Under the pieces are notes generated by a model that made no database searches, had not been told where the DNA came from, and saw nothing but the letters and a program-made list of their open reading frames with translations. Positions 36,397 to 41,663 of a DNA stretch of 43,238 nucleotides are shown here, in pieces (position 1 is the stretch's first letter; every line of letters starts with the position of its first letter). The DNA lies in NCBI GenBank assembly GCA_021779135.1, contig JAJYBH010000011.1, positions 1 to 43,238 of the forward strand, given 5' to 3'. The stretch comes from Deltaproteobacteria bacterium. Lineage in GTDB: Bacteria; Desulfobacterota; Desulfuromonadia; Geobacterales; Pseudopelobacteraceae. The position numbers and the translations under genes were made by a program.

Positions 36397-36473
36397 GCGC
36401 TTGTAGCTCAGCTGGATAGAGCAACGGACTACGAATCCGTAGGTCGGGCGTTCGAATCGCTCCAGGCGCGCCA
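36397..36473 (+). tRNA. tRNA-Arg (anticodon ACG)
   Basis: The 77-base cloverleaf folds with acceptor arms GCGCTTG/CAGGCGC (one G-U), D-arm GCTC/GAGC, anticodon stem ACGGA/TCCGT with loop CTACGAA, T-arm GGGCG/CGCTC around TTCGAAT, discriminator G and encoded CCA. The anticodon ACG reads CGN codons (A34 is normally edited to inosine). Its 3' part overlaps the end of the serine recombinase frame. Confidence 0.95.
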
Positions 36474-38048
36474 AACATCATTGAATCCGATAACTTTTTT
36501 TGAGGTTATCGGATTTTTTGTTTCTGCCGCAAACCTTATGGCCCCGACCAGTGCGCGAGAGTCTCCTGAAACCCGTACTTCCTTGCCAGTCAGTACGATT
36601 TCTTTGATCAATAGCTGAAGGTACTCCTTCGGAAACCCGCTTGTGGTGTCCAGCAACTTTTCCCTTAGCAATTCACTCCAACGCTTCACCTCTTCGGGAT
36701 CTATGGTATCCACCAGCATCTTTGGCGATAGTTGATAGTTTGCCACCTTGGCGGCAAGCTCCGCCCTTTTTGACTTATGGTCATCCATCCTCGCCTTGGT
36801 GTCTTCATCCAGGGATACGCAACCAGTCTCGATGGCATCGTACAGCTGATGGATTTTATGCTGTACGACCTTCAACTGTTTGTTCAGGTCATTGATATCC
36901 ATTCCACTGTCCTTGCTCATGCGTTGTTTCAATTCCTTTAAAATCACCGACACCCTCTCTGGAGTGAATACCTTGTCGGCCAAGGCATTCAGGATCGCCT
37001 TGTCAAAGCGTGCCATAGCTACCGGCTTGGATGAACACAGTCCGAGGTGTTTCTTGGTCTTGGTAGTACAACGGTAGTAAGCATAGGTTCCACCTTCGCC
37101 GGTACCCGTGGCCATGGTCATGGCCGCACCACACTCCCCGCATTTAAGCAAACCTGTCAACAGGCGCGGTGAAGCCAGACGTTTGGGATGTGAACGTTTG
37201 GGACTTCTCTGTTGGCGTTTGTATCGTGCCAGTTCAAACACATCTTCCGAGACGATCGGCTCCACCGGAATAATGACGACTTCACTTTCCTCTTTGGCTT
37301 GCCCCGTACGCCAATCACGCTGATTAAAGCGTTTTTCACCTTTATAAACAGTGTTGGTGAGTATCAGGTTGATAGTACAGGTACTCCAGTATTCGCCACG
37401 CCGGAGAATCTTCTTTTCATTGAGATAGGAAGCCACCCCTTTCAGACCAATATTGCGCTCAATGTACAGATCGAAGATCTGTTTCACCACCGGCGATTCC
37501 TCGGGGTTCACAATCAGTAGTTTTTTGAATCCGGACCGGGCCGGTTCGGTTGTTTCATGAATGCGATAGCCAAACGGAACCGATGAGCCGTTGAAAAAAC
37601 CGCGCTCTGCATTCTTGAGCATGCAACGCAGGGTATTGGCGCCGTTTTGCTTGCTCTGGTACTCGTCAAACAGGGCGAATTGGCTGCGCATAAGTTCGCC
37701 GGCAGCATCCTCCTGCGTTAATTGAGTTATGGATATCAGGCGGACTCGATGTTTTTTCAGTTCCACCATCAGAGCTCCCAGCTTGAGGTGATTTCTGAAA
37801 ATCCGCGAAAGATTATAAACAACAATTGCATCCACCGGTGATGGCGTGACACATGCCTCCGCCAGCATTCTCTGGAACTCTGGGCGGTTTTCATCGGTCC
37901 CAGACAGTCCCTCGTCCTTGAACTCCCCGACTATCTGGTAATTGTTCTGATTGCACCAGACTTTCATCCTGTCTATCTGGTCAGGGACTGACAGGTCGTT
38001 GTCGGCCTGTCGCCCGGTACTGACTCTTCCGTACAAAAAGTTTTTCAT
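36429..38048 (-). CDS. Large serine recombinase, 3' end inside tRNA-Arg
   Basis: A 539-residue integrase: resolvase domain with catalytic S10 (YGRVSTGRQ), a Recombinase domain, a zinc ribbon (CGECGAAM ... [17 protein letters not shown]), then a coiled-coil segment. Large serine recombinases join attP to attB. The last residues, [16 protein letters not shown], are simply the tRNA read backwards, and the stop at 36429 is within the tRNA. Before insertion the gene must have had another 3' end. ATG 38048 with AAAGGA upstream; it overlaps the preceding small ORF by four bases. Confidence 0.93.
36484..36519 (+). terminator. Terminator of tRNA-Arg
   Basis: AATCCGATAAC (36484-36494) pairs perfectly with GTTATCGGATT (36505-36515), followed by a T-tract. 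The same bases encode the penultimate residues of the recombinase frame on the other strand. Confidence 0.85.
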
Positions 38049-38230
38049 TGTGCAGGTCCTTTCGTCAGAAGGTCTTTCAACAAATCCCCGAAGTAGAGTT
38101 CAAGGAGGCCGATTTCAGCCTGGGTTACCGCACTATCGAGAAAATCAAGTCCCTCAAGGATTATCTGTTGATGCTGTTCAGTGCGGTTTTTATTGGTCCG
38201 GGCGGCCTTGTCTTGCCTGTGTTGGGGCAT
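38045..38230 (-). CDS. Small protein coupled to the serine recombinase
   Basis: A 61-residue protein, start MPQHRQDKAARTNKNRTEQH, basic N-terminus and acidic helical C-terminus (AEIGLLELYFGDLLKDLL). Its ATG is one base after the stop of a preceding small ORF; its stop overlaps the recombinase ATG. GGGGTG lies upstream. The position suggests a recombination partner (directionality factor or regulator), unproven. Confidence 0.55.
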   Translation of the reverse strand: MPQHRQDKAARTNKNRTEQHQQIILEGLDFLDSAVTQAEIGLLELYFGDLLKDLLTKGPAQ

Positions 38231-38231
38231 G

Positions 38232-38336
38232 TTACACCCCAGCCGGACAAAAACTATTGGTCTTCTCGAAAGTATACGCGGCAGCAACATTTTCGACAAT
38301 GTCCATTTTCAAATCAAGCGTATTTACAGTGGGCAT
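38232..38336 (-). CDS. 34-residue small protein heading the recombinase operon
   Basis: ATG 38336 is preceded by AGGAGG at optimal spacing (7 bases). The peptide begins MPTVNTLDLKMDIVENVAAA and ends TNSFCPAGV before TAA at 38234-38232. A TATACT -10-like box lies just ahead of the ribosome site, so the transcript leader would be very short. The next ORF starts one base after the stop. No family recognised. Confidence 0.55.
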   Translation of the reverse strand: MPTVNTLDLKMDIVENVAAAYTFEKTNSFCPAGV

Positions 38337-38383: not shown

Positions 38384-38422
38384 AAAAACCCCCCAGCGGC
38401 AGTGAAAATGCCGTGGGGGGTT
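38384..38422 (-). terminator. Terminator of the tyrosine recombinase gene
   Basis: CCCCCCAGCGGCA (38389-38401) pairs with TGCCGTGGGGGG (38409-38420), with one bulged base; T5 follows on the minus strand. It insulates the downstream recombinase operon. Confidence 0.9.
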
Positions 38423-38426
38423 CGAT

Positions 38427-39272
38427 CTACTCATTGGGAACATAGCAACCGAGCGACCTGTGGTCGCCATGTCCCAGTTCACGGTTTACTTCTGCCTTTG
38501 TTGCTCCTTCAGCGAGACGTTCTTGTGCATACGCGTGCCTTTGGGCGTGCATATTGGCTTTCGCGGCACGAGTACCGCCCATTTTGTTCCACTCTTTGCT
38601 CTCTTTGTTCATTGCAGTATTCAAAGAGAGTTCCGGTGGAATCGCTCTTCCTTGGGCGTTTCCCAGAGCCTTCGCCGTGGCAGCAAGTTTGTCGAGGGCA
38701 GTAACCTGCTTGTCGTTGCGGACAGGAACCTCACGTGGTTTGCCTCCCTTGGCTCCCTGGACGTCAAGGTGCGGTTTGCCGTCCCTCATTACGACCCTGC
38801 ACGACAGCATAGCCTCCTCTTGCCGAAGACCAAAGGCGTCCCGCATTCCTGCGGTCGCGGACATCATCAAGGCGACACGGTCGCCGGCTGCAGCTTTGGC
38901 ATCCAACTGCAACCTAATCTCGGCGATCTTGTCGCAGTTGACGTTCATCGGATTCTGGCGTGATGCTCCACCAAACCCGTAAGCGGCATTATCTGTTGCG
39001 ACAATGCCGCCTTTGCCGATGGCCTGACACAGGTCACGAACATGCGACATGTAGTTTGCGCCGGTACGAGAATCCAATTTCTGATCATGCAGGCTTTGGG
39101 CGTAAGCCTGGACATGGCCAGGCTTCAGGTTCTCGATGCGCTGCAACCCAAATTGTTTCTGCGCAAATTGGCAGAACCTCTTGATTGTTTGCAGCTTGGC
39201 TTCCCGCGTTCCTTTCCCAACTGACCAGTTTTTGCCAACACGCTCCAATGCCTGTACAGACAATGGTTTCAT
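38427..39272 (-). CDS. Tyrosine recombinase (phage-integrase type)
   Basis: A 281-residue protein with an N-terminal SAM-like core-binding domain (about 5-95) and catalytic domain. Visible catalytic set: R150 (FGLRQEEAM), H242 and R245 (MHAQRHAYA), H268 or H271 (GHGDHRS) and Y277 (GCYVPNE). It resembles the Integrase_1/PF12834-type of small integrative elements. ATG 39272 has AAAGGAGG upstream; the longer frame upstream (to 39476) is not coding. It stands alone between two terminator/palindrome regions, so it may act on another site. Confidence 0.85.
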   Translation of the reverse strand: MKPLSVQALERVGKNWSVGKGTREAKLQTIKRFCQFAQKQFGLQRIENLKPGHVQAYAQSLHDQKLDSRTGANYMSHVRDLCQAIGKGGIVATDNAAYGFGGASRQNPMNVNCDKIAEIRLQLDAKAAAGDRVALMMSATAGMRDAFGLRQEEAMLSCRVVMRDGKPHLDVQGAKGGKPREVPVRNDKQVTALDKLAATAKALGNAQGRAIPPELSLNTAMNKESKEWNKMGGTRAAKANMHAQRHAYAQERLAEGATKAEVNRELGHGDHRSLGCYVPNE

Positions 39273-39573
39273 AATTTCTACCTCCTTTTGGTAATGGGCA
39301 GTTCGAGGCTGCCAAATCGATGGTTGAGTGCAGGCGACCAGACAGCTGGCGCTGTCCCCGGAACTAATCTGAGACACGAAGTACTCAGGTAGCGACGGAT
39401 CTTCACGGCTATGCGTACTGCGCCGTAGGCTACGTACGCATCTGCCAGTAGGCAGGGTGAGGCGGTCATTCAGCAATTTCTGATTGCTGCTCGAATAGGA
39501 GGGAAATTTTTGATCATCGGCTGATCATTTTAGAAACGGGTGGTAAACGCAGATGGTTGGCGGGGTTGCGGGC

Positions 39574-39601
39574 GGCGTCACTTTTCTCGAAAAGTGACGC
39601 C
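39574..39601. repeat. Perfect 28-bp palindrome
   Basis: GGCGTCACTTTTC and GAAAAGTGACGCC, 13-base arms with a two-base centre. No T-tract follows; it suits an operator or processing site. Confidence 0.85.
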
Positions 39602-39636
39602 TAAGCTTTTATATGTAAAATGTTCCTGGGTAGTAT

Positions 39637-39671
39637 GGCACGACCGGTGGTCGTGCCAGGGCCGATGGCCC
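39637..39671. repeat. Two adjacent hairpins
   Basis: GGCACGACC-GGT-GGTCGTGCC (39637-39657) is followed one base later by GGGCC-GAT-GGCCC (39659-39671), with TAT/ATA closing an outer stem (39634-39636, 39672-39674). The double hairpin folds like a structured RNA arm or cruciform. Confidence 0.8.
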
Positions 39672-39675
39672 ATAC

Positions 39676-39709
39676 AAAAAGGGAGCGTGCCGTTGCACGT
39701 CTCCCTTTT
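39676..39709. terminator. Bidirectional terminator-like hairpin
   Basis: GGGAG-CGTGC-CGTT-GCACG-T-CTCCC (39681-39705) flanked by A5 and T4. No protein gene ends here, so it may close a small RNA that includes the preceding hairpins. Confidence 0.7.
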
Positions 39710-39768
39710 CAGAACATTAATATTTTCATCAACGGATGATATCGGATCTCAAGACATTAGCCTGTGAA

Positions 39769-39806
39769 CAGAACCAATTTAACAATTGTCTTGTTAAATT
39801 GTTCTG
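39769..39806. repeat. AT-rich imperfect palindrome
   Basis: CAGAACCAATTTAACAA pairs with TTGTTAAATTGTTCTG with one bulge, loop TTGTC. Confidence 0.75.
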
Positions 39807-39899
39807 CAACCACACCCACAGACACTTCGTCACGTTATGTGTGCAAATGATAATTGAAATATCCGCCAACAAGGCGCTCTTCATAGAGTTTTAAACGCA

Positions 39900-39916
39900 C
39901 AGTCAATCATTGACTG
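39900..39916. repeat. Short perfect palindrome
   Basis: CAGTCAAT-C-ATTGACTG, eight-base arms around one base. Confidence 0.65.
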
Positions 39917-40683: not shown

Positions 40684-40697
40684 ACCAGTTTTTTTTG

Positions 40698-40727
40698 TTG
40701 ACAAACTACATACAATGTATGTACTAT
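40698..40727 (+). promoter_or_regulatory. Promoter with internal operator
   Basis: TTGACA (40698-40703), 18-base spacer and TACTAT (40722-40727). The spacer contains TACATACA-A-TGTATGTA (40707-40723), a perfect 17-base palindrome where a bound repressor would block RNA polymerase. The HTH protein just upstream is the natural candidate. Confidence 0.7.
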
Positions 40728-40760
40728 GCAATCATGGTAATACGTATCAGGAGGTGTTTC

Positions 40761-41663
40761 ATGATTGCAAACCTGGAAATGGTTCACAATAACGGGGTAC
40801 AAGTGACCGGGCGCGTCACCACTATCGAGAACATTGATACTCAGAGTGGGAGCAGTTATGCAAAGCTTACACTCGAAGATCGCTCAGGAAAACTGCTTGC
40901 TTTTGCATGGTCCGACAGTTGTCATCCATCCGATTTCTGCATCAATGACGTTGTGAAAGCCACGGGGCTATTCCAGCAACTTTCGTACAAATGTGTCCTG
41001 AAACTTCAATCCTGCGAGCAAGAGATCTATTATTCCGCAATAGACCTCTTGCCAGCTAGTCTCTGTAGCGACCCATCGCTGCTGGTCAGGCTGGAACACC
41101 TGATATCACAAATCACCATCCCCCCACTCAAGAAACTGGTAGAGGATACATTCAAAGACAATGTCCTGGTAAAGGAGTTTTTGTCTGTGCCGGCAAGCTT
41201 CCGGCATCATCACTCATACGAAGGTGGCTTGTTCAGACATAGTATCGAAGCCGCTGAAACTGTAGCAACAAGTACGGTTGGGATTTATCCACGGAACGAA
41301 CATCAGGTAGCAGTTGTTGCGGCACTTTTTCACGACCTGGGTAAAATCTGGACGCATGGCAAGAGCTTCCGCTCATTGCTTGATCACTCATACCTTAACC
41401 TGGAAATTCTCGCGCCAAGGCTGGCAGAACTTGATATGGTTTGGAGACCTGGTGCAGATATGTTGCGGCACATGCTCGTCTGTCCGCATGATAACCGCCA
41501 TGATTCACTTGTAATTGAGGAGGCCATTAGATACGCGGACCGTGCCAGTGCAGGTCTTGATGCGCGTCAGATGGCATTTGCCAACGAACCCGCCTTCAAA
41601 ACCTGCGTAAAGTTCGGAGATCGGCGGTACTGTCGCAGTCAGGAGTATAAAAGAGCTGCATAA
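40761..41663 (+). CDS. OB-fold plus HD-domain phosphohydrolase (YhaM/TraI_2-like)
   Basis: A 300-residue protein. Residues about 15-95 look like an OB-fold (VTGRVTTIENIDTQSGSSYA). An HD domain follows: FRHHHSYEGGLFRHSIEA with H160, and AALFHDLGKIWTHG with H191-D192, then later HMLVCPHD. This order is that of YhaM, a 3'-5' exoribonuclease. The HD signature also resembles TraI_2 (MOB-H) relaxases, which in integrative elements process the transfer origin, so either RNA decay or DNA processing is possible. ATG 40761 follows AGGAGGTG. Confidence 0.75.
   Translation: MIANLEMVHNNGVQVTGRVTTIENIDTQSGSSYAKLTLEDRSGKLLAFAWSDSCHPSDFCINDVVKATGLFQQLSYKCVLKLQSCEQEIYYSAIDLLPASLCSDPSLLVRLEHLISQITIPPLKKLVEDTFKDNVLVKEFLSVPASFRHHHSYEGGLFRHSIEAAETVATSTVGIYPRNEHQVAVVAALFHDLGKIWTHGKSFRSLLDHSYLNLEILAPRLAELDMVWRPGADMLRHMLVCPHDNRHDSLVIEEAIRYADRASAGLDARQMAFANEPAFKTCVKFGDRRYCRSQEYKRAA

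Follow-up and report, generated by a model that had tools for sequence, protein, structure and literature searches.

A conserved palindrome and structured-RNA unit upstream of a tyrosine recombinase gene: a putative mobilization module in a Geobacterales element

Introduction

In SGI1, an oriT lies upstream of the gene for MpsA, a protein of the tyrosine recombinase family (PMC6414798), and sgm-sRNA is encoded between mpsA and this oriT (PMC9299015). The Klebsiella plasmid pIGRK encodes MobK, and its oriT lies within 456 bp upstream of that gene (PMC8152469). Transfer of the ICE SGI-4 has been demonstrated by experiment, and its oriT was not identified by the authors (PMC6543542).

The DNA described here is contig JAJYBH010000011.1 (assembly GCA_021779135.1) of a Deltaproteobacteria bacterium of the Geobacterales; the whole stretch of 43,238 nucleotides that was analysed is referred to below as the window. 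An original prediction had drawn attention to a field of palindromes in gene-free DNA (39574-39916). The reading favoured here, to which a probability of roughly 0.6 is given, is that this field belongs to a module for mobilization of an integrative mobilizable element, in which the palindromes would be the oriT, the product of the neighbouring tyrosine recombinase gene (INT) an atypical relaxase, and an RNA a counterpart of sgm-sRNA.

Gene content of the element

Rightward from a tRNA-Arg gene (36397-36473), the window encodes a large serine recombinase (36429-38048, minus strand) and INT, followed by gene-free DNA, an HTH-like ORF, a protein with OB and HD domains (40695-41663, plus strand) and a DDE transposase; the contig stops at 43238, before the other end of the element. 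The serine recombinase, which is distinct from INT, is probably the integrase of the element. Its gene overlaps the tRNA-Arg gene at the 3' end and, as it ends inside the tRNA gene, the C-terminal codons of the recombinase are probably supplied by the attachment site. A similar overlap, with another tRNA-Arg (CCT), was seen in the related locus L041. An ORF of 84 aa (38045-38299, minus strand) has a 4-base overlap with the start of the serine recombinase gene and is a possible partner of it; L041 has an ORF in a similar place.

INT (38427-39272, minus strand) contains PF12835 (Integrase_1) together with PF12834, and the Shine-Dalgarno sequence AAAGGAGG precedes its ATG. A terminator-like hairpin, CCCCCC..GGGGGG (38389-38420, minus strand), lies 3' of the gene and is kept in genome G006. 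Homologs of INT were found in 32 of 277 genomes of the class, with the catalytic residues RKHRHY intact in every one of the 26 that were extracted. Its N-terminal domain (PF12834/PF02899) is a core-binding domain which, with the catalytic domain, makes up the domain set of a canonical recombinase. Elements bearing INT were found to have a second integrase gene, many of these beside a tRNA gene. The other integrase is a serine recombinase in the window, L041, L089, L091 and L092, and a different tyrosine integrase in L042, L076, L079, L083, L084 and L085; integration would appear to be the work of this other enzyme and not of INT. No INT homologs were found in phage records, and the open-licence literature searched held no instance of PF12834/PF12835 proteins being called relaxases.

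The OB/HD protein, encoded on the opposite side of the INT leader from INT itself, has a weak match to TraI_2/MobH and had been put forward as a candidate nickase, which is probably wrong. INT appears to be the better candidate, because it travels with the palindrome across clades and its RKHRHY residues are intact. No homologs of the OB/HD protein were found among the plasmids searched, and a scan of genome contigs confirmed no relative. It is also encoded close to INT in a second element; the two genes adjoin each other in some elements and not in others. This second element (G000:C42; L085:4401-19001), from the same genome as the window, adjoins a tRNA-Met gene and contains its own integrase, a KfrA-like gene, INT, a leader with a GTCTC repeat, the OB/HD protein and a type I restriction system.

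The palindrome field

All five palindromic structures of the original prediction are present. The main palindrome, GGCGTCACTTTTC-TC-GAAAAGTGACGCC (39574-39601), is proposed here as the oriT core; it had been described as a perfect 28-mer, a description which has to be amended to 13+2+13 as the two central bases are unpaired. Beyond it lie a double hairpin (39636-39671, or 39632-39675 including the outer stem GTAT/ATAC), whose stems are mostly retained in L041 with altered loops, and a bidirectional terminator-like hairpin (39677-39709), whose minus-strand T-run is retained in L041 and which marks the end of the conserved unit described below. The AT-rich hairpin (39775-39801) and the 17-bp palindrome (39900-39916), the latter not conserved, are outside this unit. 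At a distance from INT like that of the AT-rich hairpin, L041 has a hairpin of unrelated sequence (upstream 500-524; arms of 10, loop of 5), and each of the two may serve a different HTH protein as its operator.

Five perfect inverted repeats (arms of at least 8, gaps of up to 15) were counted in 343 bp against a shuffle mean of 0.075, and five were reached in none of 1000 dinucleotide shuffles. The best-scoring palindrome tiles of the entire 43-kb window fall in this field, with no other part coming close, and the segment 39560-39715, taken as single-stranded DNA, gave a fold z of -10.3. The main palindrome matched two contigs in a scan of genome contigs and none in a scan of viral contigs. 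That no gene explains the field was borne out, a gene with a database match being absent there: for about 950 bp beyond INT there is no database-recognised gene, and the small HTH-like ORF comes next.

Conservation upstream of INT

The palindromes were found to be part of a conserved non-coding unit of about 435 bp (39273-39709) directly upstream of INT. In Geobacter sp. palsa_1151 (G263), the nearest named relative found, DNA that aligns at 76% runs from within INT through the leader to 39706, ending at the terminator hairpin. Within the clades compared, the 400-450 bp upstream of INT are conserved as non-coding DNA, with indels that do not keep a reading frame. An inverted repeat with a GTCTC/GTCAC core is located 300-420 bp upstream of INT in nearly all Geobacterales homologs inspected (640 bp in L042); its arms are retained and its gap, often an inner hairpin, varies from 2 to 68 bases.

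In the homologs that have it, this repeat lies 300-670 bp upstream of INT. GTCAC or a close variant was identified upstream of INT in 10 of 12 alpha- and gammaproteobacterial plasmid or ICE homologs (24-32% identity), examples being GTGCGTCACTTGC..GCAAGTGACGCAC in Thiothrix pTunz2 and CTGTCACTACCG..CGGTAGTGACAG in Agrobacterium. In L109 the GTCAC core falls in an imperfect extension of the repeat, and a clear GTCAC repeat was missing from two plasmid homologs (L108 and L113). Between the palindrome and INT is site A (39511-39527), composed of two TGATCA half-sites 11 bp apart, within a block that is conserved in L041 and partly in L042 (GGGAAATTTTTGATCATCGG). The half-sites, one helical turn apart, tend to resemble the palindrome arms of their own clade in alignments inspected by eye, a resemblance which would fit both being read by one protein.

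A covarying RNA structure upstream of INT

A structured RNA had been proposed at 39574-39709. A covarying RNA structure does exist, but the proposed position is probably wrong: it lies between the palindrome and INT, on the minus strand at about 39286-39510, with its core at 39297-39357. The covariation check over homologous elements found both conservation and covarying pairs at the core; the stretch 39574-39709 is the oriT-like DNA. The larger structured leader (39286-39510; RNA fold z = -3.3) has the place of sgm-sRNA in SGI1. Its core consists of hairpin P2, the unpaired GCCUGCACUCAAC (39323-39335) and hairpin P1. Among near relatives GCCUACACUCAAC is common and is flanked by two hairpins which differ in sequence and retain their pairing.

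The MAFFT alignment misregistered these hairpins; the arms were aligned by hand and the loops padded with N. Once the arms were aligned in this way, 95.8% of cells are paired, compared with 54.2% when shuffled and 32-41% when slid, and all seven pairs of P2 show changes on both sides, figures which are to be read as coming from an alignment fitted to the structure. The alignment was therefore tested as a model (R1) on other loci. Matches (E <= 0.05) were obtained in 16 of 277 genomes of the class, 15 of them just upstream of INT when coordinates were compared, with most matched loci being training rows. Those outside the training set were G033 (E = 5e-7), G037 (0.02) and G178 (1e-7), the last being almost a copy of a training row, and the match in G006 is 356 bp from INT. 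Over 395 genomes spread across the phylum, R1 matched the genome of the window only, and at useful E-values it missed the plasmid and most distant INT homologs. The RNA structure is shown for clades of Geobacterales; for SGI-4 and pTunz2 it is no more than suggested.

The 41 bases before GCCUACACUCAAC have a fold energy that is on average below that of shuffles (Stouffer z -6.3 over 21 related, non-independent sequences). A sequence-only fold of the whole-leader alignment recovered the main palindrome and little besides. Searching Rfam with the window and loci returned tRNA only, apart from weak chance matches; the RNA beside the palindromes is newly recognised and has no match to a described Rfam family. 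For a transcript started from a promoter beyond the oriT, as with sgm-sRNA, no minus-strand sigma-70 match was found, and the hosts may use other promoters.

In G006 (locus L042) the distance from INT to the RNA motif and the palindrome is greater by about 330 bp. The intervening DNA contains an inserted 20-bp stem flanked by A8/T8, a strong bidirectional terminator (~70-118 bp upstream of INT), along with a second copy of the INT terminator.

INT on plasmids and ICEs

On the Acinetobacter and Psychrobacter plasmids pAhaem11616b, pAs1069_b and pA15BP2, INT precedes a small gene, a gene for a T4SS coupling protein, or both. These plasmids are typed as non-mobilizable and have no annotated relaxase, an absence which is provisional as their gene tables are incomplete. 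MobA/MobL is encoded close to INT on three alphaproteobacterial plasmids, INT is near transfer genes in SGI-4-type ICEs, and small circular plasmids also carry it. Plasmids with the unit encode their own rep elsewhere. Some INT elements also have a conventional relaxase (MobA/MobL, or a TraI-domain protein in SGI-4), and in these INT may not be the sole relaxase.

A stretch of about 180 bp without annotation is located 700-900 bp upstream of INT in pSGI4 (L097:2047-2287). Part of the SGI-4 INT region is matched by 724 E. coli records, most of which, among the matches listed, match only this stretch.

Discussion

The unit shares with SGI1 a tyrosine-recombinase-family protein, an upstream (here proposed) oriT with inverted repeats, a separate integrase, an RNA between gene and oriT that is read toward the gene, a small hairpin just before the gene and a terminator-like hairpin beyond the oriT. 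By its predicted structure and its place between INT and the proposed oriT, the RNA would be comparable to sgm-sRNA. However, a core-binding domain is part of INT itself, at the N-terminus, whereas MpsA relies on a separate protein, MpsB, and mpsB was not seen beside INT; the GTCAC repeat and the GCCUACACUCAAC motif are not described for SGI1. Similarly, pIGRK has a tyrosine-recombinase-like relaxase and an oriT a few hundred bp upstream with three inverted-repeat pairs, but MobK is without a core-binding domain and no RNA is reported for this plasmid. INT is likened to MpsA, MobK and TcpM by anatomy and gene layout; by analogy it may work like MpsA, and it is not classed as one since the core-binding domain absent from MpsA is present. 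SGI1 was also sought via insertions at E. coli mnmE, and the five regions examined contained an unrelated inserted gene. The INT homolog that ICE SGI-4 carries near its transfer genes is preceded, at a distance of 459 bp, by an inverted repeat, GTCACTTG, and it also has a P2-like hairpin with ACTCAAC; this ICE differs in also encoding a TraI-domain protein, which is proposed as its relaxase.

On the mobilization reading, INT would act as an atypical relaxase: it would bind the half-sites of site A (39511-39527) as well as the GTCAC inverted repeat (39574-39601), and its catalytic tyrosine would nick one strand. The nicked strand would be exported by the conjugation pore of a helper, leading to transfer of the element. 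The structured RNA, presumably transcribed from the leader toward INT, could be required as a mobilization cofactor like sgm-sRNA. Mobilization is preferred because of the conserved anatomy, the plasmid and ICE gene neighbourhood and the SGI1 and pIGRK precedents, so that of the two origins first suggested, transfer or replication, the transfer origin is the better supported and the replication origin, lacking Rep or iterons, is disfavoured.

The main rival is that the palindrome and half-sites are a recombination site of INT, used for resolution or attachment and resolving multimers or cointegrates of the excised element. TnpI of such a resolution system acts on the adjacent IRS, a site of inverted and direct half-sites, and the crossover core of a res or att site requires a fixed short spacer. 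The locus resembles this system in that INT, a canonical tyrosine recombinase, has its catalytic residues complete, that an inverted repeat and direct half-sites one helical turn apart beside the gene are the typical layout, and that INT is present on small circular plasmids. Nevertheless this explanation is considered unlikely: the gap between the arms varies from 2 to 68 bases among homologs, the neighbours of INT on plasmids and ICEs include genes for coupling proteins, mob genes and transfer genes, and a covarying RNA is not something that a recombination site predicts.

Less probable still is a reading of the leader chiefly as a 5' untranslated region that regulates INT in cis, together with operators for the HTH protein encoded nearby. 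In its favour, the RNA lies on the same strand as INT, and P1 ends just before the INT Shine-Dalgarno sequence in most near relatives. Against this, the RNA motif and palindrome of G006 are displaced by about 330 bp with the strong terminator (20-bp stem, A8/T8) in between, so that the RNA is unlikely to be solely an INT mRNA leader, and this reading gives no reason why plasmids of other classes should keep a GTCAC inverted repeat at a distance of 300-670 bp. A replication origin of the excised element is very improbable, for although the AT-rich hairpin and dense repeats would suit one and SGI1-type elements are capable of replication, the window encodes no replication initiator beside the unit, whose conserved companion is a tyrosine recombinase and not Rep, no iterons were found, and unit-bearing plasmids have their own rep elsewhere.

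Taken as a mobilization module, the unit may represent a widespread and largely unrecognised class of relaxosome in Proteobacteria, combining a PF12834/PF12835 tyrosine-recombinase relaxase with an oriT that is a GTCAC hairpin and with a structured RNA that is obligatory, and RNA-assisted conjugation might be common instead of a peculiarity of SGI1; this generalisation is put forward tentatively, with the balance of judgement against it. If the unit is a mobilization module, a mobilization RNA, so far known from one element family, would be general, and the GTCAC site and the RNA would be simple markers for finding such elements, including a candidate oriT for ICE SGI-4. Many plasmids and islands are typed as non-mobilizable for want of a known relaxase, and several of these carry the unit; should it serve in mobilization, such elements would have more potential for transfer than they are credited with.
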